This document shows, in pieces, positions 43,637 through 64,000 of a stretch of 64,000 nt of DNA (its first letter is position 1; every line of letters begins with the position of its first letter). This stretch comes from Thiomicrorhabdus immobilis. GTDB taxonomy: Bacteria; Pseudomonadota; Gammaproteobacteria; Thiomicrospirales; Thiomicrospiraceae. The DNA lies in contig NZ_AP024202.1 in NCBI RefSeq assembly GCF_021654855.1, positions 2,356,001-2,420,000 on the forward strand, read 5' to 3'. The notes beneath the pieces were generated by a model that saw only the letters and a list, made by a program, of their open reading frames with translations, did not search any database and was not told the origin of the DNA. The position numbers and the translations under genes are program-made.

Positions 43637-43739
43637 TATTTCAATGGCACGTGTAATATTTATGAAAATAGACGATTTAACCAATACGTATCTCGCTATT
43701 TATCAAGCCATTTATCAAATTACGCTACAGGAATAAAAC

Positions 43740-44570
43740 ATGCTATTTTATGAGACTTTACTTGACGGGAAATTCGTTCCAGTAACGCTTGAAGGCAAAA
43801 ATCCTCGCGAGCGTTTTACCGACTGGGTGTTGTTGGATACCCCCTTTGTTGCATCGCCTATCAACGGCGGAATGAAAGAGGCGCAAGAAAAATTGGCAGC
43901 CCTTGATGTGATTGCTTACCAAAAAACACGCAACCATTTGGATGGAGCGGTCAGCGGCTTATCCCCTTACATTGAACACGGTTTAATTCAAGCCGATGAG
44001 GTATTGAAATTCATCGACAGTAATCACGCCCGGATAGAGGCTTATCATTTTTTACAACAACTGAGTTGGCGCGCTTTTTTTGAACAAAAATACCTAGAAG
44101 ACCCTTCTTTGATTTGGAAAGATGCTGGCGATTACAAAACCGGATTCAAAGCAGACGATTATGCCGACAAACTGCCAAAAGACATCCTAAATGCCAAAAC
44201 ACCGGTCGCGGTGATTAATCAGTTTATTGCGGAGCTTTATCAAACGGGTTATCTGCATAATCACGCTCGCCTGTATTTAGCTTCTTATATCGTGCACTGG
44301 CGCAAAATCAAATGGCAAACCGGTGCCAAATGGATGTTAAGCCATTTGCTTGATGGAAACTTAGCCTCCAATAACTACTCTTGGCAATGGGTTGCCAGTA
44401 CGGGCAGCAACAAACCTTATATTTTCAATTTGGACAATGTCACTCAATTTGCCAGCAAACAATACCAAACCCAGCGGTCGTTAAACCTGGAAATCGATAA
44501 ACCTTACACTCTTTTAAAGAAACAGCTGTTCCCGAACGTGAAGGAGTTTCAAAATGAAAAAAAACATTGA
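43740..44570 (+). CDS. stand-alone photolyase FAD-binding domain protein
   Basis: 276 aa corresponding to the C-terminal FAD domain of the photolyase/cryptochrome family. GAVSGLSPYIEHGLI, LSWRAFFEQKYLED, TGYLHNHARLYLASYIVHW and DGNLASNNYSWQWVASTGS match the FAD-binding and Asn-Asn/Trp-Gln-Trp motifs. The usual N-terminal alpha/beta antenna domain is missing here; a related domain is encoded by the next gene, overlapping by 17 bp. CAGGA precedes the ATG. It could be a DNA-repair flavoprotein or a light receptor. The start near the shared 11-bp repeats suggests regulation by the LitR-type protein. Confidence 0.82.
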   Translation: MLFYETLLDGKFVPVTLEGKNPRERFTDWVLLDTPFVASPINGGMKEAQEKLAALDVIAYQKTRNHLDGAVSGLSPYIEHGLIQADEVLKFIDSNHARIEAYHFLQQLSWRAFFEQKYLEDPSLIWKDAGDYKTGFKADDYADKLPKDILNAKTPVAVINQFIAELYQTGYLHNHARLYLASYIVHWRKIKWQTGAKWMLSHLLDGNLASNNYSWQWVASTGSNKPYIFNLDNVTQFASKQYQTQRSLNLEIDKPYTLLKKQLFPNVKEFQNEKKH

Positions 44571-45036
44571 TACTTTAGTTTGGTTAACCGCAAGCCAGTT
44601 GAACGCCAACCACCCTGTTTATGAGCAAATTGACGGCCGCGTGGCCACCTTGTTTATTTGGGATGATGAGCAATTTCAAAAGATGGGGTTTTCAATCAAA
44701 CGCCAATATTTCATTTGGCAGTGTTTACAGGATTTTAAAAAACGCAATTTAATGGTGATCAAAGGCGAGACCGACCATGTGTTAAAGTCTATCTACCAAA
44801 AAACCCCGAAGATTAAGATTATCACCCCTGAAGATAAACGCTTAGATTACAGCCGATGGTCATTCATCAATCGGTTGAATCAACCCCAGTTTTTGGTCTA
44901 CCAAGGCAAGATACCCTACGGTTTTTTTAAATTTTGGAAACAAGCTGAACAGCAACTGTTCCCTAAAAAATACCCAGCGCAATCGCATGTCAAAGCAAGT
45001 ATTCCAAGCAACATTAATCAGTCATCGGCAGTGTGA
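44554..45036 (+). CDS. reduced photolyase alpha/beta-like domain protein
   Basis: 160 aa. DTLVWLTASQLNANHPVYEQ and VATLFIWDDEQFQKMG then RQYFIWQCLQDFKKRNLMVI follow the pattern of the photolyase N-terminal Rossmann-like domain (LVWFRRDLR..., VFIWD..., long helix, strand with (R/K)G). QFLVYQGKIPYGFFKFWKQ resembles the end of that domain. It has a perfect AAGGAG site inside the end of the previous gene, so it is a separate coupled gene, not a frameshift. Likely partner of the FAD half. The assignment is by pattern only. Confidence 0.6.
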   Translation: MKKNIDTLVWLTASQLNANHPVYEQIDGRVATLFIWDDEQFQKMGFSIKRQYFIWQCLQDFKKRNLMVIKGETDHVLKSIYQKTPKIKIITPEDKRLDYSRWSFINRLNQPQFLVYQGKIPYGFFKFWKQAEQQLFPKKYPAQSHVKASIPSNINQSSAV

Positions 45037-51193: not shown

Positions 51194-52519
51194 TTAACTC
51201 CAGCCAATCGCTTTAGGTAACCAGAGGGCTATTTCTGGAAAAATCATTACCAACCCAATCACACCAATTTGCATCCCAATAAAAGGCACAACCCCTTTAT
51301 AGATATCAATCGTTTTAATTTCTGGAGGAGCAACACCTTTAAGGAAAAATAGTGACCAACCAAAAGGTGGTGTTAAAAAAGAGGTTTGCAAATTCAGTGC
51401 TACTAAAATCGCTAACCAAACCATATCGATACCTAATGCATGAAAAATTGGTAGCATTAAAGGTAAGACAATATAGGAGATTTCAATCCACTCTAAAAAG
51501 AAACCTAAGACCAAAAGTATGAGCATCATGAAAAGGATTGCCCCCCACTCGCCTCCTGGAATCATTGAGAATAAATCTTCAATTAAATAATCGCCATCCA
51601 AGCCTCTAAAACTTAAACCAAAAATTTGTGCGGCAATCAGTACAAACATAATCATGCCGGTGATTTTTAAGGTCTCTCTTAAGGTTCCTCTTAAAACATC
51701 CAAACTCAATCGTTTACTTAACAAAACCAAAACCAAAGCGCCTAAAGCACCCATCGAAGCGGCTTCTGTCGGTGCAGCAACCCCACCTATAATTGAGCCC
51801 AACACTGCAAATATGAGAATAAAGGGTGGAGCAACAGACTTGATAAATTCAATCCATAATTCTTTTCTTGAATACTGCTCTCTTTCCTCTAGCTCTATTG
51901 CAGGAACCTTTTCAGGGTTTTTCCAAGCAATAAACAAAATATACAACACATACAATGTTGCCAGTATTAAACCTGGAACCAATGCCGCCGCAAACAGTGG
52001 TCCAATGGCCTCTCCTGTAATATCAGCCAGTAATATCAACACTAAACTTGGGGGAAGAATCTGCCCTAAAGTTCCTGACGCACATATTGTTCCGCAGGCT
52101 ACTGAATGGCTATAATTTCGTCTCAATAACGTCGGTAATGCGATCATACTTAAGGTAACAACCGTTGCCCCTACAATGCCTGTAGAAGCGCCCATTAAGA
52201 CACCAACAAGAATAATCGCTATCGCCATTCCGCCCGGAAGCCTTCCGGCAAGATGCCCTAAGACATCAAGCATTTTCTCCGCTAAACGCGACTTTTCGAG
52301 CATCACGCCCATAAAAACAAACAGAGGAATCGCTAATAATGTGTAGTTGGTTAAAACACCAAATATGCGCGCTGGAATAAGATTGAATAAATCAACCCCC
52401 ATCCCTATTAATCCGAAGGTTAAACCTGCCGCAACGATTGAAAATGCAACAGGAACTCCTACTAAAATAAGAGTAAAAAGTGTGATGACCATTAAAATGG
52501 CCAAAAATTGAGGTTCCAT
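51194..52519 (-). CDS. dctM: TRAP transporter large permease DctM
   Basis: 441 aa with about twelve hydrophobic segments. GVPVAFSIVAAGLTFGLIG, ASTGIVGATVVTLSMIALP, CASGTLGQILPPSLVLILLADI and LNLQTSFLTPPFGWSLFFLKG are DctM hallmarks. It forms the ion-coupled channel together with DctQ. It is 4 bases from dctQ. Confidence 0.92.
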   Translation of the reverse strand: MEPQFLAILMVITLFTLILVGVPVAFSIVAAGLTFGLIGMGVDLFNLIPARIFGVLTNYTLLAIPLFVFMGVMLEKSRLAEKMLDVLGHLAGRLPGGMAIAIILVGVLMGASTGIVGATVVTLSMIALPTLLRRNYSHSVACGTICASGTLGQILPPSLVLILLADITGEAIGPLFAAALVPGLILATLYVLYILFIAWKNPEKVPAIELEEREQYSRKELWIEFIKSVAPPFILIFAVLGSIIGGVAAPTEAASMGALGALVLVLLSKRLSLDVLRGTLRETLKITGMIMFVLIAAQIFGLSFRGLDGDYLIEDLFSMIPGGEWGAILFMMLILLVLGFFLEWIEISYIVLPLMLPIFHALGIDMVWLAILVALNLQTSFLTPPFGWSLFFLKGVAPPEIKTIDIYKGVVPFIGMQIGVIGLVMIFPEIALWLPKAIGWS

Positions 52520-52523
52520 AAAT

Positions 52524-53030
52524 TCAGTGCTCTTGCTTAGTATTCGTTAATGCCTTCAAAAAAAGAGCCAAGCCCTGTATAGCAATCAGAACAAAACCAA
52601 TTGGAAGTAATGATTTAACTAAATATCGATAAGGCAGTCCTCCAGGATCAGGAGAAACTTCCATAATGTCATATGAACGAAAGACAAAATCTGACGTGAG
52701 GTAAATCATAAAGACGGAAAAGGGAATGATAATAAATAGAGGAATTACCAAATCCATCCAACGTTTAGTTCTTTGTGAATAGCGATGATAAAAAAGATCA
52801 ACTCGGACATGCTCACCTTGCTGTAAGGTATAAACAGATCCAAACATTGCGATTGCGGCCAATAGATGCCATTCGAGCTCTTGCATACCGACTGAACTTG
52901 CTGAAAAGAAATATCTAGCAAGCACATTGCCCGCGACTAAAAGCACGAGCATAAAGATCAACCAAGAACTTAAATGGCCGATGCATTCGATGAATGCATC
53001 TAGCCTTTTAGATAAACTTGATAAAAACAT
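52524..53030 (-). CDS. dctQ: TRAP transporter small permease DctQ
   Basis: 168 aa, four membrane helices; NVLARYFFSASSVGMQELEWHL and GEHVRVDLFYHRYSQRTKRWMD (shortened) are typical of DctQ. It associates with DctM. Lies between dctP and dctM with spacings of 2 and 4 bases. Confidence 0.9.
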   Translation of the reverse strand: MFLSSLSKRLDAFIECIGHLSSWLIFMLVLLVAGNVLARYFFSASSVGMQELEWHLLAAIAMFGSVYTLQQGEHVRVDLFYHRYSQRTKRWMDLVIPLFIIIPFSVFMIYLTSDFVFRSYDIMEVSPDPGGLPYRYLVKSLLPIGFVLIAIQGLALFLKALTNTKQEH

Positions 53031-53032
53031 AA

Positions 53033-54127
53033 TTACAACTTAGTCATAAGTACTTTTTCACTTCGTTCCTGCCATGCATCATGCTTGGCTTTGAAAGCAA
53101 AATAGCTTTCATGAACTTTCTTCACCAAAGGATCTTTTTCTGTATAGGTTTCAAAAGTTTTGAAAGTAATCTCTTTTAATTTTTCAACTACAGAATCTGG
53201 CAAGGTTCTAACCTCAACACCATGATTTTTTACTAAATCATCTAATGCTTCAGAGTTATTAGCCTCTGACCACATATGACTCATTAAGTTACATTCCGCA
53301 GCAACCGTTTCTACAATGGCTTGTAAATCTTTTGGTAAAGAATTCCAAGCATCTTTATTAATTAAACACTCGGTAGTGTTACTTGGCTCAGACCATCCGG
53401 TAGTGTAGTAATATTTAGCCGCTTTCTGTAAACCTAAACGACGATCTTGATATGGGCCAACAAATTCAGCCGCATCAATCACTCCACGTTCAAGAGCTGA
53501 GAAAATCTCGCCACCAGGAAGCAACTTAACGCTAACCCCCAATTGCTCATAAACTTTACCCGCTAATCCAGGAATACGCATACGTAGTCCCTTTAGGTCT
53601 GCTACAGAATTGATTTCTTTTCTAAACCAACCCGTCATTTGAACACCCGTATTTCCTGCGGCCAAACCGATAACGTTAAATGGCTTATACACCTCATCCC
53701 AAAGCTCTTTTCCGCCGCCTTCTTGTAACCAAGCGTTGGTTCCTTGAAAATTCATCCCAAATGGTACCGCTGTAAAATACTGAGCCGCAAAAGTTTTTCC
53801 AGCCCAATAATATGAGTTAGCCCAGTTCATCTCAATCGTACCTTTAGAGACTGCATCAAAACCTTCCATCGCTGGAATCAACTCACCTGCCGCATAATGC
53901 TTAATTTTTAAACGACCACCAGACAGTTCATCTATTCGTTTGCAAAAATAACTGGCGCTTCCTGGCCCTTTTGAATAAAAAGGCGCACCTGCTGGATAGG
54001 CATTAGTCATCTTCCATCTAAATTTTTGTTTATCTGCAGCATTTGCGATTGATGGCGCAACCGTAGCGCCTGTGGCTGCTAACCCTGCTAGACCAGCCCT
54101 AAGAAAATCTCTTCTTTTAAGTGACAT
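53033..54127 (-). CDS. dctP: TRAP solute-binding protein DctP (TakP-like)
   Basis: 364 aa. The N-terminus KRRDFLRAGLAGLAATG is a twin-arginine signal, so it is exported folded. GGRLKIKHYAAGELIPAME, WANSYYWAGKT, GWFRKEINSVADLKGLRMRI and ERGVIDAAEFVGPYQD follow the TakP-like group, which binds 2-oxo acids and relatives. The Arg in LRMRIPG is the usual carboxylate ligand. The true substrate is not determined; context with ggt and tauE suggests an amino-acid-derived or sulfur-containing carboxylate. Confidence 0.9.
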   Translation of the reverse strand: MSLKRRDFLRAGLAGLAATGATVAPSIANAADKQKFRWKMTNAYPAGAPFYSKGPGSASYFCKRIDELSGGRLKIKHYAAGELIPAMEGFDAVSKGTIEMNWANSYYWAGKTFAAQYFTAVPFGMNFQGTNAWLQEGGGKELWDEVYKPFNVIGLAAGNTGVQMTGWFRKEINSVADLKGLRMRIPGLAGKVYEQLGVSVKLLPGGEIFSALERGVIDAAEFVGPYQDRRLGLQKAAKYYYTTGWSEPSNTTECLINKDAWNSLPKDLQAIVETVAAECNLMSHMWSEANNSEALDDLVKNHGVEVRTLPDSVVEKLKEITFKTFETYTEKDPLVKKVHESYFAFKAKHDAWQERSEKVLMTKL

Positions 54128-56745: not shown

Positions 56746-57849
56746 TTAGACAATTGTTGCACCGAGTTTTTGGGCATTGGTTTTCACTTTGGCCAAATCT
56801 TCATCGTCTACAACCACATCCCAGCCTTGTAGATGCTGCAACACCAAATGGGCCAATGCCATGGTATGATCTGCGCGGTCGTTTAAGCATTGAATATAAC
56901 CAAAGGTTTCACCCCCGGCCTCCTCAAAATATTCACGGTTCTCTTCGCCAATCTCTTCAATGGTCTCTAAACAATCGGCTGAAAAACCAGGACAAATCAC
57001 CTGAACATTTTTAATCCCGCGCTTAGGTAAATCCATCATGGTTTCATCGGTATAGGGTTGTACCCAGGGCTCCTTACCAAAGCGCGACTGGAAGGTGACG
57101 AGATATTCCTCTTTACTCAACCCCAACTTTTCCGCCACCAAACGTGAGGTTAGATGACAATGGCATGGATAAGCATCGCCATTATCCCAATAACGTTGTG
57201 GAATACCGTGATATGACATCACCAATAACTCGGGCTTGCCATGCGCTTGTTGATATTCTGCGATGGAGTTGGCCAAGGCATCAATATAACCGGGGTGGCG
57301 GTAATATTGGTTGATGGTGCGGATTTCCGGAACCCAACGCCAATTAAGCAACTCTTGGTTTACCGCATCAAAGGTTGAGGCGGTGGTTGCACCGGCATAT
57401 TGCGGATACAGAGGCAAGACTAAAATTTTTTGACAGCCTTTGGCTTGCAGTTTTTGCATGGCCGAAGCAATCGAAGGATTGCCATAACGCATGCCCAACT
57501 CAAACTCCACTCGAGTGTTGAGTTTGGGTGTGACATGTTTTGCAATGGCATCCACTTGACACTGCGAAATATTCAACAATGGCGCTCCAGGCCCTTCAGA
57601 ATCCCAAACGGTTTGATAAGCTTGTGCAGACTTGGCAGGCCTGGTATTCAAAATAATCCCATTCAAAATCAAACGCCATAACCAACGTGCCGGTGGTGGC
57701 TCGACCACTCGGGGATCGGACAAGAACTCTTTTAAATAAGGCTTGAGAGCCTCTTTGGTAGGTGCATCTGGCGTACCCAGATTGGTGATTAACACACCAA
57801 TCGCCGAAGCATCGCCATGTTGATAATTGGTGTATGATTGGTAATACAT
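56746..57849 (-). CDS. hemH: ferrochelatase
   Basis: Inserts iron into protoporphyrin IX in the last step of protoheme synthesis. ITNLGTPDAPT, LKPYLKEFLSDPRVVE, YGNPSIASAMQKL, VLPLYPQYAG and VMSYHGIPQRY are diagnostic. The ATG at 57849 has AAGGA 6 bases upstream and gives 367 aa; an upstream ATG at 57909 lies across the shared promoter. It is divergent from the DUF523-DUF1722 gene and shares the 11-bp TTGTATA repeat, so light control is plausible. Confidence 0.93.
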   Translation of the reverse strand: MYYQSYTNYQHGDASAIGVLITNLGTPDAPTKEALKPYLKEFLSDPRVVEPPPARWLWRLILNGIILNTRPAKSAQAYQTVWDSEGPGAPLLNISQCQVDAIAKHVTPKLNTRVEFELGMRYGNPSIASAMQKLQAKGCQKILVLPLYPQYAGATTASTFDAVNQELLNWRWVPEIRTINQYYRHPGYIDALANSIAEYQQAHGKPELLVMSYHGIPQRYWDNGDAYPCHCHLTSRLVAEKLGLSKEEYLVTFQSRFGKEPWVQPYTDETMMDLPKRGIKNVQVICPGFSADCLETIEEIGEENREYFEEAGGETFGYIQCLNDRADHTMALAHLVLQHLQGWDVVVDDEDLAKVKTNAQKLGATIV

Positions 57850-57876
57850 ATCATTCCTTGCAAATAGCTTTCTTAA

Positions 57877-57894
57877 ATGTATAACTATTGTATA
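57877..57894 (+). promoter_or_regulatory. 11-bp-spaced ATGTATA / TTGTATA repeat, candidate LitR operator
   Basis: ATGTATA, 4-base spacer, TTGTATA: the same period and sequence as at 43608-43636. It overlaps a TATAAT -10 box (57891-57896) directed at the DUF523-DUF1722 gene and lies 28 bases upstream of the hemH start. Confidence 0.6.
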
Positions 57895-57939
57895 ATATTT
57901 AGAAAACAATGTATCAGTTTATTAGCATGAGGATTAAAA

Positions 57940-58914
57940 ATGCACTTTCCACGATTAAAAATTGCGGTTTCAGACTGTTTGAGAGGCACCGAGTGTCGTT
58001 ATAACGGTGGTCATGCTCAAGATGATTTTGTGAACCAACATTTGGCCAAATATGCCGATTTTTATCCTTTCTGCCCGGAAGCGGCGGTGATTGGCACACC
58101 TAGGGAAACCATCCGTCTGGTGGGGATTGGCACGGAAGTGCGTGTCATTGCACCCAAATCCAATATCGATTACACCGAAGGTTTGCAGGCCTACAATGAC
58201 AACATCATCCCTAAACTGGTCGATAAGAAAATGGACGGCGCGGTGGTGAAATCCCGCTCACCAAGCTGTGGTTTGGAGCGCATCAAAGTGTATCAACCTA
58301 GCGGTGAATGGCATGGTTCTAAAGATCCGATGCAAGCAGGCCTGTTTACCGGAGATTTGCAGAAAGCCATGCCGCATTTGGCCATCGAGGAAGAGGGGCG
58401 TTTAAGTGACGCTTGGTTGCGAGAAACCTTTATGGTTCAGGCGTTTACCTCGGCACGTTGGCGTGAGTTCATGGAAAACCAACCAACGGTTGGTAAATTC
58501 CAAACCTTTCACCGCGACCACAAATATCTGTTTCTCTCTAAAAATGAAGAGATTTATCGTGAGCTAGGGGCTCTGGTGGCGACCACCCGCAAACACAACT
58601 TAACAGAAAGCCTGATTGGCTATCAACATAAGATGTTTCAACTGCTGGCATGCCGCTCTAAAAAAGGCCATGTAAAAAATGTCCTGGACCATATTTACGG
58701 CTACTTCAAACATGATATTACCCAAGATGAAAAGGCCCACTATCACGAAACCGTTGCCGAATTTATGGAGGACATCATCCCCTTGATTGCGGTCATTAAA
58801 ATCTTGGAGCAGTTTTTAAAACGCTACGGTTCAGACTATTTGGCGTCTCAGGTGTTCTTTCACCCTTACCCGGCGGATTTAGCATTACGCTCAAGGACTT
58901 CAGCGTACCGTTAA
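57940..58914 (+). CDS. DUF523-DUF1722 (YbgA-like) protein
   Basis: 324 aa. Residues about 5-155 are DUF523/TudS-like: SDCLRGTECRYNGG, FCPEAAVIGTPR and KSRSPSCGLERI supply the three Cys expected for an iron-sulfur cluster. Residues about 195-310 are DUF1722 (KFQTFHRDHKYLFLSKN, IGYQHKMFQLLACRSKKG), the domain of E. coli YbgA, encoded next to phr. TudS proteins desulfurate thiouracil; the activity of the fusion is unknown. GAGG precedes the ATG. The photolyase association in E. coli fits the light-response setting here. Confidence 0.85.
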   Translation: MHFPRLKIAVSDCLRGTECRYNGGHAQDDFVNQHLAKYADFYPFCPEAAVIGTPRETIRLVGIGTEVRVIAPKSNIDYTEGLQAYNDNIIPKLVDKKMDGAVVKSRSPSCGLERIKVYQPSGEWHGSKDPMQAGLFTGDLQKAMPHLAIEEEGRLSDAWLRETFMVQAFTSARWREFMENQPTVGKFQTFHRDHKYLFLSKNEEIYRELGALVATTRKHNLTESLIGYQHKMFQLLACRSKKGHVKNVLDHIYGYFKHDITQDEKAHYHETVAEFMEDIIPLIAVIKILEQFLKRYGSDYLASQVFFHPYPADLALRSRTSAYR

Positions 58915-58955
58915 ACCGTGAATTGGATAAAAAGGATGTTTAGCGAGTCCATCTC

Positions 58956-58983
58956 TTGACCCCTGTGCAGATAAAGCGATAAT
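58956..58983 (+). promoter_or_regulatory. candidate sigma-70 promoter of LOV gene
   Basis: TTGACC (58956-58961) and GATAAT (58978-58983) with a 16-base spacer, about 31 bases before the LOV start codon. No TTGTATA repeat is present, so this gene may be expressed independently of light. Confidence 0.5.
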
Positions 58984-59014
58984 AGAGTCGAATTTTTATT
59001 CAAATGACGGTGTT

Positions 59015-59473
59015 ATGAAAGATCCAAAACTGAGAACGAATTTATTACTACAGCTTGTTGAAAACGCGCAAGAAGGGATTGTGGTTGCCGAAAAAGAAGG
59101 TCATGACACCATTCTGATTTATGTGAACCCAGCATTTGAACGCTTAACAGGTTATAAATCGGAAGAAATCTTGTACCAGGACTGCCGCTTTTTACAAGGT
59201 GAAGACACCCAGCAAGAATCGATCAAAGTGATTCGTGATGCGATTGATGGTTCTGAACCGGTACGAACCATTTTAAAAAACTACCGTAAAGACGGTACGG
59301 TGTTTTGGAACGAGTTGAGTGTAACGCCCTATTTTGATGAGATAGATAATCTGACTTACTTTATTGGTATTCAAAAAGATGTCACCGAGGAGGTGGTGTT
59401 GCAAGAAAAGCTGGATAAAGCCAATGAAGAAATTGCTCAATTAAAAGCCGAGCTCAAGGCGATTAAGAAGTAA
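59015..59473 (+). CDS. short LOV blue-light photoreceptor
   Basis: 152 aa consisting of one PAS/LOV domain and a C-terminal helix. YVNPAFERLTGY, the photoactive signature DCRFLQGED with Cys57, NYRKDGTVFWNELSVTP (FMN-binding strand) and YFIGIQKDVTEE match true LOV domains, including the adduct-forming Cys. Residues 122-152 are a likely coiled coil (EKLDKANEEIAQLKAELKAI). This is the layout of short LOV proteins such as those of Pseudomonas putida. It has no output domain and is convergent with a LitR-type gene, its likely partner. Confidence 0.88.
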   Translation: MKDPKLRTNLLLQLVENAQEGIVVAEKEGHDTILIYVNPAFERLTGYKSEEILYQDCRFLQGEDTQQESIKVIRDAIDGSEPVRTILKNYRKDGTVFWNELSVTPYFDEIDNLTYFIGIQKDVTEEVVLQEKLDKANEEIAQLKAELKAIKK

Positions 59474-59540
59474 TCCAAGATTGAAAGTCCGTGCAAGATC
59501 GGTAAATTGCATAAAGACCTTTTTTGCTAGACCTTAACTG

Positions 59541-59567
59541 AAAAAAGCTGATTAACTCAGCTTTTTT
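59541..59567. terminator. bidirectional intrinsic terminator
   Basis: AAAAAAGCTGA, 5-base loop, TCAGCTTTTTT: 11-bp stem with T-runs on both strands, placed between the convergent LOV and LitR-type genes. Confidence 0.85.
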
Positions 59568-59604
59568 TATGCCTGTTGAAAACAATCCTACGTCTGTTTT
59601 CGGG

Positions 59605-60453
59605 CTAGTCTAAACGATAAGCATAACACTGGATTTTTCGACTCAAGTTCAGGTTATCGTCGGCAGATTCCATAAAATAATGCAGCTCTAAGCCAGGGTG
59701 TTCTTCAACCCAATTGCTCCAACGTGTTTCATCAAATTGCTGCAGCATATCTACAATGACCAGCCCCTGGCAAAGTGATGCTTTGATATTTTCAAATAAC
59801 AGAACATCGTCCTGCTGTGGTGTTGTACTGATAATCGAGTTCATGCCTTTTTCAGCCAAACGAATCGCCGCGATGACTAAAACGACCGTTGAATCCTGCT
59901 CCGATTGACCTTGCAACCATAGGCTTTTAGCCGAATGCGATGCGATATGGCGACTGGCAAAACGTAACCGGGTATATAACCGTGGCAGTAATTGAGACTC
60001 CCAAAAGACGATAACGGCACGGGTTGAGTTTGAGTTCTCATGCTCAGTCAATTGCTTGCTAACCTGTAATATAGTGGCAAACAAAAAACGATCGCTCAAA
60101 TCCATGAAAATTTGGTCAAGCTCTGCGTTTAAGCCTTCTAAATCAAAATTGACACACGCTTCTTTTAGCTTGGATTCATAGTCATAATCATCAGAATCAA
60201 GCGTATCTTTCACCTGGGTTGCCATCTGCTTGAGTCGGGCTTTAACCTGACTAATCGGAATACCCTCTTCGGTTAATTTCACCGCCGCTTTGATACGTTC
60301 GATATGCGCTAAAGTGTAAAGACGATGCCCACCCTCGGTACGAACCGGTTCAATCAAACCATAGCGTCTTTCCCAAGCCCTCAAGGTGATTGAATTCACC
60401 CCTGTCAAGTTGGAGACTTCTCTAATTGGGTAAAGTGCTTCTTCGCTGTTCAT
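59605..60453 (-). CDS. litR: LitR/CarH-type MerR regulator without evident B12 motif
   Basis: About 282 aa from the ATG at 60453. MerR DNA-binding domain: YPIREVSNLTGVNSITLRAW, ERRYGLIEPVRTEGGHRLY, then HIERIKAAVKLTEEGIPIS. The C-terminal ~190 residues have the helical-then-alpha/beta plan of CarH/LitR but no DxHxxG cobalamin motif that I can see. Such B12-less LitR proteins of pseudomonads work with short LOV proteins, as expected from its neighbour. Possible upstream starts are an ATG at 60471 and a TTG at 60519; the latter lies in the operator-like repeat. Confidence 0.8.
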   Translation of the reverse strand: MNSEEALYPIREVSNLTGVNSITLRAWERRYGLIEPVRTEGGHRLYTLAHIERIKAAVKLTEEGIPISQVKARLKQMATQVKDTLDSDDYDYESKLKEACVNFDLEGLNAELDQIFMDLSDRFLFATILQVSKQLTEHENSNSTRAVIVFWESQLLPRLYTRLRFASRHIASHSAKSLWLQGQSEQDSTVVLVIAAIRLAEKGMNSIISTTPQQDDVLLFENIKASLCQGLVIVDMLQQFDETRWSNWVEEHPGLELHYFMESADDNLNLSRKIQCYAYRLD

Positions 60454-60512
60454 AGTGTTCAATTCTTTCATTTTGGGCGCAAGGGCATCAAACCCTATAG
60501 TTATGCGTATGT

Positions 60513-60531
60513 TAGACAAAAACCTATACTA
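60513..60531 (-). promoter_or_regulatory. degenerate TTGTATA-like repeat before litR
   Basis: On the minus strand TAGTATA and TTGTCTA, 12 bp apart (TATACTA and TAGACAA on plus). It shares ACCTATAC with the 43608 site. Position between the photolyase stop and the LitR start suggests autoregulation. It is weaker than the other two sites. Confidence 0.4.
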
Positions 60532-60537
60532 AAGCAA

Positions 60538-62034
60538 TCAACTCGCCGCTTTGATTGCTGCCACACGCTCCAAGTGTTCGGTTCTACTCTGTTTCAAATC
60601 CACCAACGGATAGGGGTAATCTGTACCCAATTCAATGCCTTTTAATTTGCATTCCGCCAGATACTCCCACGGCGCATGAATTGCTTTGCTGGAGAGTAAT
60701 TTCAATTCAGGGACCCAAGTTCTAATATATTCACCATCGTCGTCAAACTTCACGCTTTGTGTCACCGGGTTAAACAAACGGTAATAAGGCGAGGCATCCA
60801 CCCCGCAACCTGCCACCCACTGCCAACCCATGACATTATTAGCCGGGTCAGCATCAAACAAGGTATTATCAAACCACGCCTTGCCTTTTAACCAAGACTG
60901 GTTCAAATTCTTGGTTAAGAACGAGGCCACCAACATACGCACACGATTATGCATCGTGCCGGTTTCCCATAGTTCACGCATGCCCGCATCCACAATGGGA
61001 ATCCCCGTCAACCCTTTCTGCCAGGCCTGGTAGTTTGGTAAATCCTCTTGCCAAGCCATGGTTTTATATTTGCTTTGAAACGGTTCGGTTTCGGTTTGTG
61101 GAAAATGCACCAGCAAGTGGCGTGCAAACTCTTTCCAGACCAACTGCCTTATCCACGGCATCGCCTGTTCCGCTTTAACAAGGTTTTCGGCCATTAAGGC
61201 TTGCAGATAATAATAGATAACCCGCGGATTGATTTCTCCAAAATGCAGATACTGTGATAGACCGCTGGTGGCATTTAGGCTTGGAAAGTCACGGTCATAA
61301 TCATAACTGTCTATACCTTGTTTGATGAACTCGTCCAACTTTTGCCAAGCCGCTTGTTCACCGACTTGCCAATGTGACATCATCTTTTTCGCCCACGGCT
61401 CTCTAGCCAAAGCCTGTAAATCTGCCGGCAAATCCAACCAGGCCTGGTCAGTTGGTTGGATTTGCGCACAGCGGGTTAAACAACCGATATCCTCTTGCAA
61501 AGGTTCTATATATTGTTGCTTGGCCATTAAGGCTTTATAGAAAGGTGTAAACACCAGATAGGGTTTGTTTTGCTGATTGCTGATTGCTTGCGGCTCCAGC
61601 AAAAACTCCGAATAAAAAGGTGTTAGCGCCACTTTATATTGCTGGCAAATCGCCAAAGCCTGCTGTTGCATCTGCATAAAAGGTGTACCGACCTGAAAAC
61701 TATACATGACCTGTCTGACCTTGTAGTCCGACAAAAGCTTGGAAAACTGGGTGGCAAAATCGCCATCAACAACCCACAAGTCACCACCTTTGGCACGCAT
61801 GTTTTTCTGCAACAAGACCAAGCTATGCGCCAACCAAAGTGAATTGGCTTCACCAACCTGCTGTTTTGGGTCATGAAAATACGCCACAATCACCCCACCC
61901 GCTGAATCCAAAGCGGCTTGCAAAGCAGGCAATGCACTTAACCTAAACTCCCTTTGCAACCAGACCAAGGTGGCGGCTTGCTCTGGACGTTTGGCGGTAT
62001 CGACAGAGGTATTAACAGCGGTATCAGCAGACAT
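60538..62034 (-). CDS. phrB: class I-type DNA photolyase / cryptochrome
   Basis: 498 aa, full length. The N-terminal alpha/beta domain has TLVWLQREFRLSALPAL and a conserved nucleotide-like core (WVVDGD). The FAD domain shows TSGLSQYLHFGEINPR, WKEFARHLLVHFP, TGIPIVDAGMRELWETG, MHNRVRMLVASFLTKNL and DADPANNVMGWQWVAG. Light-driven repair of cyclobutane dimers is likely; a cryptochrome role cannot be excluded. It follows the chalcone-isomerase-fold gene by one base and precedes litR. Two ACCAGGCCTGGT-type repeats lie within it, both in Gln-Ala-Trp codons. Confidence 0.9.
   Translation of the reverse strand: MSADTAVNTSVDTAKRPEQAATLVWLQREFRLSALPALQAALDSAGGVIVAYFHDPKQQVGEANSLWLAHSLVLLQKNMRAKGGDLWVVDGDFATQFSKLLSDYKVRQVMYSFQVGTPFMQMQQQALAICQQYKVALTPFYSEFLLEPQAISNQQNKPYLVFTPFYKALMAKQQYIEPLQEDIGCLTRCAQIQPTDQAWLDLPADLQALAREPWAKKMMSHWQVGEQAAWQKLDEFIKQGIDSYDYDRDFPSLNATSGLSQYLHFGEINPRVIYYYLQALMAENLVKAEQAMPWIRQLVWKEFARHLLVHFPQTETEPFQSKYKTMAWQEDLPNYQAWQKGLTGIPIVDAGMRELWETGTMHNRVRMLVASFLTKNLNQSWLKGKAWFDNTLFDADPANNVMGWQWVAGCGVDASPYYRLFNPVTQSVKFDDDGEYIRTWVPELKLLSSKAIHAPWEYLAECKLKGIELGTDYPYPLVDLKQSRTEHLERVAAIKAAS
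61437..61448. repeat. ACCAGGCCTGGT palindrome (copy 6)
   Basis: Exact copy inside the photolyase gene; an 11-of-12 copy lies 417 bp away at 61021-61031. Confidence 0.8.
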
Positions 62035-62589
62035 CTAAGTTCCTAAATTTTTCAGAAGACGGTTTTTTAAATCTTCAGAGAGCGGATTTTCTCCCAACCA
62101 AATGCCAAAATACAGCGCCTTAAATCCACCAACCTTTGAAGTGAATAATGGGATTTGATTGAGTTTTAACTGGGTGCCAATTTGTGGTGTATATTCTAAT
62201 TCATAACAATCACCCGGTTTTACTGGCTGATACGATTGATGCAGCCGGCTGACTTCCGATTTTAACGGCTCACTCATCTCTTTAGGCAACACCTTATTGG
62301 CACCTTCGATAAAAAGACCGGGAGAGATAGCTTGCAAATAACACAAGCTCAACTTCAACGGCTGCGAGTCCGCTAAAAAATCTTTAGGCAATTTCGGTTG
62401 TGGGTTGGCACGCTCGGCTTTGCCGTCCACATACAAACTTGCATTGTAGACATCCAACCACAACCAAGTCGCCTTGCCTTGCGAGACTTCTTGCCAAACC
62501 ACATCCTTTGAATCAGATGCATTTGCCAAACAACCGTTTGAAAAAACCACGCCAAAAACACTTAACGCAAAATATACCGCAAGCTTCAT
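62035..62589 (-). CDS. chalcone-isomerase-fold periplasmic protein
   Basis: 184 aa with a signal peptide (about residues 1-22, possible CLA cleavage). DVYNASLYVDGK, PLKLSLCYLQAISPGLFIEGA and ALYFGIWLGENPLSEDLKNRLL are patterns of the Chalcone_3 family, which in bacteria may bind fatty acids rather than flavonoids. It lies in the CFA synthase - DUF3833 - this gene - photolyase run, seen in light- and singlet-oxygen-induced clusters of other proteobacteria. Confidence 0.82.
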   Translation of the reverse strand: MKLAVYFALSVFGVVFSNGCLANASDSKDVVWQEVSQGKATWLWLDVYNASLYVDGKAERANPQPKLPKDFLADSQPLKLSLCYLQAISPGLFIEGANKVLPKEMSEPLKSEVSRLHQSYQPVKPGDCYELEYTPQIGTQLKLNQIPLFTSKVGGFKALYFGIWLGENPLSEDLKNRLLKNLGT

Positions 62590-62602
62590 CTATCTGGCCA
62601 AT

Positions 62603-63148
62603 CTACAAGGGGGTTTTACTAAAAAACAGCGTGACTTCGCCAACATTAAACCCCCATTTAGTGACACTGGCGCGATTTATCATGCTGCTGTCACTCTGCA
62701 AAAACATCCAATCGTTAAATTGCACATGGATACTACCGTCTTTGTAGGGTAGGTCTAGGGTATAACGCCAATTCAAGGCGTTGCCAGCCGATTCACCAAT
62801 CGCCTCACCCACGACATCATCGGCTTTGCCGGTATAATGCCCCTCTGCAGTTTGGGTGATTTGCCAAACACGCTGCTGTTTTTCACCATCGTGGTACACA
62901 AAACGTTCATCCAAGGTCAGTTGCTGGCCATCAACGGTACCGTTGATATCTACCGTAAAACGCCGCAGAACCTTGCCAGACCGATCTTGAAATTGACCTT
63001 GGGCGAAGGTTTTACCCTTGAAATATTCAAACAGTTCAAGCTGTGGTGTTTCATTTTGGTAATCTTGGATTTTCACTGAACTGCATCCTGAAATCAGGGT
63101 TGATGACATTAAACCCATCGCTAAAAATAAACCTTTAAACAGCATCAT
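62603..63148 (-). CDS. DUF3833 family lipoprotein
   Basis: 181 aa. Lipobox LISGC at about residues 18-22. FKGKTFAQGQFQDRSGKVLRRF, DERFVYHDGEKQQRVW and DDWM-like FNDWMFLQSDSSMINRA are typical of DUF3833, a lipocalin-like family commonly beside CFA synthase and photolyase genes. It overlaps the CFA synthase gene by 4 bp. Role unknown; lipid handling at the envelope is inference. Confidence 0.85.
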   Translation of the reverse strand: MMLFKGLFLAMGLMSSTLISGCSSVKIQDYQNETPQLELFEYFKGKTFAQGQFQDRSGKVLRRFTVDINGTVDGQQLTLDERFVYHDGEKQQRVWQITQTAEGHYTGKADDVVGEAIGESAGNALNWRYTLDLPYKDGSIHVQFNDWMFLQSDSSMINRASVTKWGFNVGEVTLFFSKTPL

Positions 63149-64000
63149 AACGCCTCCTCGACCCGCTCTTGCTTTGAAAGCGTTAACTGCACCACGCTAC
63201 TGTGTTGGGTTTCAAAACCAACCGTGCAGTAATCCAGGTAATAGTTCCACATTTTTTGAAACGACTTGTCGTAACCTTGTTCCAATAAAGTTTGGCTATG
63301 TTTATTAAAGTCTTGCTTCCATAACCGACAGGTTTTGGCGTAATCCTGACCAAAATCGAAGACATTATCGACCTTGAAGCCATGCTTTGTCGCCAATTGC
63401 TTCAATTGAGTTAAACTTGGCAAAAGTCCGCCAGGGAAAATATAGGTTTGGATAAAATCCACATTATCCTGATAAAGCTCGGCAAACCGTTCGTTGATGG
63501 TAATCACCTGCAAAGCCACTTTGCCATGGTCTTTCAAGCACTCATTGAGTTTGGCAAAATAAACATCCCAATACTCCTTGCCCACCGCTTCAAACATCTC
63601 GATGCTCACAATATGGTCGTACTGCTGCACCTCATGACGATAATCTTGCAGAACCACTTCAAACTGACCATCAACCGCCTGGTTTTGTAAACGTCGTAAC
63701 GCAAAATCTCTTTGCTCTATTGATAAAGTTAACCCCTTGATTGCAGCGCCCTTATGTATCGCGGCCTCCATGAACCCACCCCATCCGCAGCCGATTTCCA
63801 ATACATCTTGACCGGCTTTGAGGTCAATCTCCTTAATCAGGCGCTGATATTTTTGTTGCTGGGCCTCTTCTAAAGTCTGGTCATCACGACTGAAGATGGC
63901 ACTTGAGTATGACATGGTCTTGTCTAACCACATTTGATAAAAATCGTTACCTAAGTCGTAATGATAAGAGATGTTTTTACGGCTATTCTCAATCGAATTA
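63145..64000 (-). CDS. cyclopropane-fatty-acyl-phospholipid synthase family (5' end beyond window)
   Basis: The reading frame stays open to the right edge (64000), so the N-terminus is missing; about 285 C-terminal residues are visible. YHYDLGNDFYQMWLDKTMSYS, VLEIGCGWGGFMEAA (SAM site), GLTLSIEQRDFALRRL, HIVSIEMFEAVGKEYW and YIFPGGLLPSL are CFA-synthase motifs. It could form cyclopropane or other methyl-modified acyl chains, such as the UfaM-like branch. It is the upstream member of the light-linked operon. Confidence 0.9.
   Translation of the reverse strand, partial: NSIENSRKNISYHYDLGNDFYQMWLDKTMSYSSAIFSRDDQTLEEAQQQKYQRLIKEIDLKAGQDVLEIGCGWGGFMEAAIHKGAAIKGLTLSIEQRDFALRRLQNQAVDGQFEVVLQDYRHEVQQYDHIVSIEMFEAVGKEYWDVYFAKLNECLKDHGKVALQVITINERFAELYQDNVDFIQTYIFPGGLLPSLTQLKQLATKHGFKVDNVFDFGQDYAKTCRLWKQDFNKHSQTLLEQGYDKSFQKMWNYYLDYCTVGFETQHSSVVQLTLSKQERVEEAL

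Follow-up and report, generated by a model that had tools for sequence, protein, structure and literature searches.

Overlapping genes in Thiomicrorhabdus immobilis that probably encode the two subunits of a photolyase with permuted domain order

Within the 64,000-nucleotide stretch of Thiomicrorhabdus immobilis DNA analyzed here (the window), two overlapping genes on the plus strand encode the FAD-binding domain and the alpha/beta domain of a photolyase as separate proteins, the FAD domain first. The pair is real and conserved, and with a probability of about 0.82 its products are the two subunits of one permuted photolyase, a FAD-containing catalytic chain and an alpha/beta chain, which we infer to contact one another. 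Proteins of this kind have already been described in marine cyanobacteria. What is new, as far as searched, is the wide distribution and near-obligate pairing of the two genes, a form of the catalytic half free of an Fe-S cluster, and a paired exchange between Glu-Met and Gln-Leu (E-M and Q-L) at the lesion site.

The catalytic half (43740..44570, plus strand, 276 aa) was assigned by profile and alignment, and the alpha/beta or antenna-type half directly downstream of it (44554..45036, plus strand, 160 aa) by profile and fold. The sequence-only reading had taken the first gene to be only the FAD-binding half of a photolyase, and this was borne out: the protein carries the motifs HNHARLYLAS and ASNNYSWQW, and its sole Pfam match is FAD_binding_7 (PF03441), at 2.9e-23 and above the cut-off. 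When the profile of its family was compared with the PDB, the best matches were the class I photolyases 1tez and 1owl (4e-30), followed by 1dnp and by the class III protein 4u63. Also as that reading had it, the second gene has a ribosome-binding site of its own, AAGGAG at 44541..44546 (plus strand) within the first gene and 7 nt from the ATG at 44554, and the two reading frames share 17 bp (44554..44570, plus strand), an overlap that may couple their translation. A weaker possible ribosome-binding site, AGGA, precedes the FAD-half gene at 43729..43732 on the plus strand. Promoter-like sites were no more frequent than in shuffled sequence (4 found, 4.2 in shuffles), and the terminator-like sites (5, against 2.0 in shuffles) all lie within the two ORFs.

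The second protein is recognized only faintly at the sequence level. Its Pfam match to DNA_photolyase (PF00875) has an E-value of 5.6e-4 and 20.3 bits, under the 26.6-bit cut-off, NCBIfam gave no match, and among 45 members of the alpha/beta family PF00875 was found at 0.01 or better in 14, with 8e-6 the best value. An AlphaFold2 model built with the 45 family members (pLDDT 88.8, pTM 0.73) was more informative. In VIA-align comparisons with the PDB the top match was E. coli photolyase 1dnp (Z 10.4, rmsd 4.8, 140 residues aligned), Z values of 8 to 10 being middling by the tool's own note; rows 1-41 were photolyases and cryptochromes without exception, with a USP domain at row 42 (Z 8.2). Foldseek returned a single match at E of 0.001 or below, photolyase 8ijy at 9e-4. 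The fold match is trusted in spite of its middling Z because the list of matches is uniform and the family context agrees with it. The model thus indicates that the 160-aa protein folds like the N-terminal alpha/beta domain of photolyases, and a second protein unrelated to photolyases, which the Pfam score alone would have been insufficient to exclude, is ruled out by this fold. An unrelated fold had been named beforehand as the outcome that would count against the pair, and it did not appear. The description of this protein as a shortened antenna domain is right as to the domain, but with about 140 residues aligning to the photolyase alpha/beta domain it is hardly shortened. The split point of the two proteins seems to lie within the inter-domain linker.

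The order of the two domains, FAD and then alpha/beta, is the reverse of that in an ordinary photolyase. One such photolyase is encoded in the same window at 60538-62034 (minus strand, 498 aa), and like E. coli PhrB it has the two domains of the pair and largely the same active site, but it is a single chain with the alpha/beta domain first, whereas the pair consists of two ORFs. It had been argued from the sequence that a frameshift could not explain the reversed order, and we agree: a frameshifted or decayed ordinary photolyase is rejected on three grounds, namely the reversed order, two conserved frames and a distribution of the pair over many phyla.

Conservation was followed first among related genomes. 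Some match to the FAD half was found in 37 of 58 relatives searched, most of these matches being ordinary photolyases, and the short FAD gene itself occurs in 14 of the 58, the window genome included. In all 14 the second gene follows it directly, with gaps of -17 to +36 nt; 13 of these second genes were found by search (one of them weakly, at 9.9e-4) and the remaining one (G036) by reading the next ORF. Identity to the window proteins in the 13 other genomes is 41-82% for the FAD half and 19-76% for the second half. A wider scan of one genome per species, 84,980 species in all, gave at least 580 stretches with relatives of the FAD half, short and ordinary forms unsorted, and linkage was counted in the best 80 of these, which include five genomes of the set of 14. 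A second gene was found downstream of the FAD gene and on its strand at 74 of these loci, the FAD half coming first in every one of the 74 linked pairs. The pairs overlap by 4 nt in 31 cases and by 8 nt in 11; since ORF starts were set at the first possible start, some of the longer overlaps are overestimated. The remaining six loci comprise one fusion (L111, Planctomycetaceae, 482 aa) and five FAD genes with no adjacent second gene. For three of the five, from two Calothrix and one Roseiflexaceae, the second gene is elsewhere in the genome, and in a fourth (L082) the contig end cuts through it. No second gene was found for the fifth (L122, in G411), whose contig ends right after the FAD gene; this locus counts against pairing. 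A scan of genome contigs with the single FAD protein as query returned 35 stretches and one of viral contigs 22, none of them a relative, and among phages there were six records at 32-33% identity, none covering 80%.

Near some of these loci other genes recur. A DUF3429 gene directly follows the split pair in the relatives G033 and G008 (L020:2811-3245 and L024:2780-3196). A flavin-containing, amine-oxidase-like, NAD(P)-binding protein is encoded about 1.3 kb downstream of the middle of the FAD gene in 16 of the best 80 loci (for example L108:4864-5892), and a protein of the same Pfam families adjoins a one-gene form at L166:2163-3230.

Co-occurrence was determined by separate profile searches for both genes on the same samples of genomes, named here by the class or phylum of the named loci at their centers. 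The FAD half was sought with profile A1 at 1e-50 in Gammaproteobacteria and with profile A4 at 1e-50 or 1e-60 in the other samples, and the second gene with profile A3 at 1e-8. Among 240 alphaproteobacterial genomes the FAD half was found in seven and the second gene in the identical seven; among 370 gammaproteobacterial genomes the counts were five and four, all four within the five; and among 146 cyanobacterial genomes they were 26 and 25, all 25 within the 26. Together, the FAD half is present in 38 of 756 genomes and the second gene in 36, all among the 38, while no genome of the 756 has the second gene without the FAD half. In some genomes only part of the candidates were scored (10 of 15 in one example), so these counts may include misses. 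The sample centers (G000, G409 and G413) were picked for having the pair, and with the centers removed the counts of FAD half and second gene become 4 and 3 of 369, 25 and 24 of 145, and 6 and 6 of 239 for the gammaproteobacterial, cyanobacterial and alphaproteobacterial samples, respectively. The two genomes that have a FAD half and no separate second gene, G264 and G439, contain one-gene forms in the same swapped order (372 and 441 aa). In the genomes searched the short FAD half is thus hardly ever without its partner; a FAD half never found together with the second gene had been foreseen as a refutation, and the search for co-occurring or fused homologues that had been advised recovered both kinds. 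In Cyanobacteria the two genes are on one strand and within 2 kb of each other in 16 of the 25 pairs; in the other nine they are not, and in five of the nine (G409, G464, G477, G502 and G504) both genes are on one contig at distances of 0.48-4.9 Mb. Because such distant genes still co-occur, linkage alone cannot explain the association.

Natural fusions of the FAD domain to a following alpha/beta domain are represented by the 482-aa L111 protein and by three Deinococcus plasmid proteins of 456, 457 and 472 aa; the Deinococcus plasmids additionally carry one split pair with a 4-nt overlap. The C-terminal parts of the three Deinococcus fusions match the second-gene profile at 2e-31 to 4e-29, and PF00875 is weakly seen by Pfam in two of the three. 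For the shorter proteins of G264 and G439 neither hmmsearch nor Pfam gave a second-gene match, which counts against pairing; in one-to-one hhalign comparisons their C-terminal parts matched the second-gene profile with E-values of 1.8e-5 and 4.7e-5 and probabilities of 78 and 68. A search of 199 genomes of the L111 phylum at 1e-40 matched the genome of L111 alone. The L111 fusion was also modeled as a stand-in for the complex, and the model is weak (pLDDT 68.8, pTM 0.46); its C-terminal domain aligns with the N-terminal domains of photolyases (1dnp at Z 12.6, rmsd 2.5, 124 residues aligned), with photolyases and cryptochromes filling rows 1-36. A tree of 61 FAD domains places 11 ordinary photolyases from related genomes in a fully supported group of their own, and the one-gene forms require three label changes, at least two of them on supported branches; in this unrooted tree the bootstrap is not settled and three branches are long. 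The split or one-gene state has therefore changed more than once, in a direction that an unrooted tree does not give. A further one-gene arrangement was seen on a Persicobacter plasmid, where a 433-aa ORF with the FAD domain first (L214:2264-3565) has a C-terminal part ending in the FFAYWK-like motif of the family and is overlapped by a 490-aa photolyase/cryptochrome-like ORF (L214:3558-5030), both being unannotated in the table used. Natural fusions in the same order, together with the strict co-occurrence of the two genes, also where they are distant, point to one functional unit, and the coupled two-subunit flavoprotein that had been proposed from the sequence is very probably a single two-part flavoprotein.

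In the catalytic half, eleven positions are invariant in all 49 aligned FAD halves (Y60, R64, N65, S75, N174, R177, W192, D205, N211, W215 and W217) and W110 is kept in 47 of the 49. We take N211 to be the active-site Asn on the FAD side, W215 and W192 to be the electron-transfer Trp pair, W110 and W217 to be the Trp residues that stack on the lesion, and several of the other invariant residues to be FAD contacts. Two alignment results count against the assignment: of the 13 FAD contacts given for the PCC 6301 photolyase the window protein shares only 8, and no Trp aligns with the third, distal member of the Trp triad of E. coli photolyase. Cysteine is absent from the window protein, which therefore has no Fe-S cluster of the described kind, while all 25 short cyanobacterial FAD halves have a C-terminal cysteine motif. 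At the lesion site the window protein has Q107, W110, L178 and W217. Positions 107 and 178 vary together: of 93 permuted sequences less than 80% alike, 60 have E-M, 32 have Q-L (the window protein included) and one has Q-M. Before rows at least 80% alike were thinned (133 to 93), the 138 permuted rows, which amount to 126 distinct sequences, comprised 92 with E-M, 43 with Q-L and one with Q-M, plus two with no readable first motif; these two rows and L130, L166 and L214 were dropped for the tree. Two cyanobacterial members with the cysteine motif are also Q-L. A quick tree that leaves out the two columns requires four to five changes for the exchange, of which two or more fall on supported branches; as to independent origins of the Q-L pair, supported branches give only two independent pairs, not enough for a sign test. 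Seventeen ordinary photolyases sampled, a set from which the NewPHL-like proteins L211 and L212 were excluded after a score cut had put them among the canonical ones, have Q-M in 10 cases and E-M in seven, most of the Gln-containing ones coming from the same genus.

The sequence-only reading knew of no described function for such a pair, and on this point it was mistaken: Phr4, Phr5 and Phr6 have been described with mutant and E. coli complementation data (PMC9426592), and a heterodimer was suggested as early as 2012 (PMC3441193). According to Haney et al. (2022), every marine Synechococcus in their set has phr4 and phr5, adjacent genes for a FAD domain and a photolyase domain, and in two Cyanobium strains the two are fused "in the reverse domain order" as phr6; a heterodimer or a +1 frameshift, and (6-4) activity, were suggested for phr4/phr5 (PMC9426592). 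In the same study a phr4 mutant of Synechococcus RS9916 had UV-C survival 20-30 times lower with no effect of UV-B, and phr4/phr5 gave UV-C protection to E. coli with no significant difference between light and dark (PMC9426592), so that a light-driven mechanism is unproven even for Phr4/Phr5. The 2012 study proposed a possible "heterodimeric photolyase complex" for SynWH7803_0266/0267 and also noted a Prochlorococcus gene for the FAD half with no gene for the other half (PMC3441193), an observation that counts against pairing; this gene is perhaps Phr7, a one-gene FAD-plus-Z-domain protein of Prochlorococcus in the account of Haney et al. (PMC9426592). The window pair resembles Phr4/Phr5/Phr6 in having the FAD domain first and the alpha/beta domain second, encoded by two adjacent genes or one fused gene, and the cyanobacterial pairs retrieved with the window family profiles share this order and show the cysteine motif that is reported for Phr4 (PMC9426592). 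The window pair is nevertheless not of the Fe-S form, which as there described has four cysteines in the FAD half whereas the window FAD half has none; it has Q-L where the commoner residues at the lesion site of permuted photolyases are E-M; its genes share 17 bp, where seven G-C pairs stand between phr4 and phr5 (PMC9426592); and its host belongs, by the nearest named loci, to the Thiomicrorhabdus/Thiomicrospira group whereas the hosts of Phr4/Phr5 are phototrophs.

Two other described classes are relevant. The short photolyase-like proteins (SPLs) of Xu et al. (2021), as cited in PMC9178010 and PMC9649867, are a class of CPD repair enzymes without an alpha/beta domain. The window FAD half is like them in being a chain of about 270 aa (276 aa in the window), closest to class I/III photolyases and without an alpha/beta domain in the chain; the difference is that SPLs are described as having no such domain, whereas in the window it is the next gene (44554-45036). 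Compared by description only, the window FAD half probably belongs to the SPL class. Among the literature found, subscription papers being mostly outside its scope, no separate alpha/beta subunit is stated for SPLs outside picocyanobacteria, and the E-M/Q-L exchange is not mentioned. NewPHLs (Emmerich et al. 2020) have an inverted topology with the FAD domain N-terminal, as cited in PMC9426592, PMC13274461 and PMC8948257, and in 2026 NewPHLs and SPLs were grouped as proteins of inverted domain topology (PMC13274461). NewPHLs are said to have "a mere Trp dyad" (PMC8948257), and the window protein seems the same; they differ in being one chain of about 400 aa, whereas the window has two ORFs. 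In an hhalign comparison of the C-terminal domain of six NewPHL-like proteins with the alpha/beta subunit there was no significant match (E 0.08, Prob 0.7), and the NewPHL-like row in the FAD tree has a very long branch and an unsure position. The six (L195, L210-L213 and L215), which we take to be probable NewPHLs, are each encoded by one gene on plasmids of Ruegeria, Peteryoungia, Niveispirillum, Novosphingobium and Asticcacaulis; they are 388-410 aa long and have the FAD domain at the N-terminus. Their genes are annotated as FAD-binding domain-containing proteins, with L211 unannotated, and DUF3429 adjoins three of the six (L212, L213 and L215).

The surroundings of the window pair are also of interest. 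A divergent gene for a DUF1731 epimerase adjoins it, and about 12-19 kb downstream (56746-63933) are genes for a ferrochelatase, a 2-thiouracil desulfurase/DUF1722 protein, a PAS protein, a MerR regulator, the ordinary photolyase, a chalcone-isomerase-like protein, a DUF3833 protein and a cyclopropane synthase. This set resembles those induced by light and photo-oxidation in other bacteria, and the PAS protein has a LOV-like motif. On the strength of that resemblance, induction of the pair by light is plausible. An operator pattern for MerR/LitR-type light regulators, with one mismatch or fewer, gave three matches, below the chance mean of 7.7, and a TATACA pair pattern gave none. By eye, three consecutive genes at 51194-54127 of the window look like those for the binding protein and the two membrane components of a TRAP transporter, and a gamma-glutamyltransferase-like gene adjoins them.

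These findings bear on how the two proteins might otherwise be understood. The catalytic subunit could work alone in the manner of an SPL, the alpha/beta protein being a separate partner such as a regulator or chromophore donor. The SPL of Rhodococcus fascians studied by Xu and colleagues in 2021 reportedly repairs CPDs though it has no alpha/beta domain, and SPLs as a class are described as repair enzymes of just this composition; the same-order fusions and the strict co-occurrence of the genes, even at great distances, make a lone catalytic subunit unlikely. The frameshifting that Haney et al. considered for phr4/phr5 would, if programmed, join the two window frames into one reversed-order photolyase, in keeping with the existence of one-gene homologues. 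This is very improbable given that the gap varies between -17 and +36 over the related genomes with the pair, 14 in number, that the 74 linked pairs differ in relative frame (their overlap is 4 nt in 31 cases and 8 nt in 11), that the genes are at least 0.48 Mb apart on one contig in five cyanobacterial genomes, and that the second gene of the window has its own AAGGAG.

A role as a cryptochrome-like blue-light sensor rather than a repair enzyme, for which a two-part build would permit light-dependent association, is improbable as well, if less so than frameshifting. The genome already has a full photolyase of 498 aa, Glu at the lesion site is replaced by Gln in the subgroup of the window, and the window also encodes the PAS protein, with its LOV-like motif, and the MerR regulator. 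Against such a sensor, W110 (47/49), W217 (49/49) and N211 (49/49) are kept, Gln is found at the lesion site in 10 of the 17 ordinary photolyases sampled as well, and the described relatives Phr4/Phr5 alter survival after UV. The two-subunit permuted photolyase is accordingly preferred.

Such a photolyase would be made as a FAD catalytic subunit and an alpha/beta subunit, produced in step from the overlapping genes. The chains would bind each other as two lobes, much as if an ordinary enzyme had been divided at its linker and its halves encoded in reverse order, with the alpha/beta subunit closing the FAD pocket and perhaps holding an antenna pigment. Blue light would be absorbed by FADH-, and perhaps also by that pigment, and the excited FADH- would donate an electron to a UV lesion in DNA, which would then be split; the lesion would sit between W110 and W217, with Q107 and L178 adjoining it. 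The pair would act beside the ordinary photolyase encoded at 60538-62034.

In the window the FAD domain precedes the alpha/beta domain and the two parts are present together, as in the reversed-order photolyases, and near-obligate pairing of this sort probably applies to the SPL class. It is tentatively suggested, with the odds somewhat against it, that the whole SPL class, for which publications propose the role of single-domain ancestor of photolyases and cryptochromes, is a two-subunit permuted photolyase whose alpha/beta gene was overlooked as separate and sometimes megabases away, and that the Fe-S-free Q-L form, with its joint changes from E to Q and from M to L, may differ from the E-M majority in lesion or strand preference. 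If short FAD halves regularly have a separate alpha/beta partner, they would model a primitive one-domain photolyase poorly, and the case published for SPL ancestry of the cryptochrome/photolyase family would have to be made anew. In a natural two-chain photolyase the contribution of the alpha/beta domain to FAD retention, antenna pigment, lesion range and light dependence would be directly testable, and the Q-L exchange would provide a concrete pair of residues for lesion specificity.
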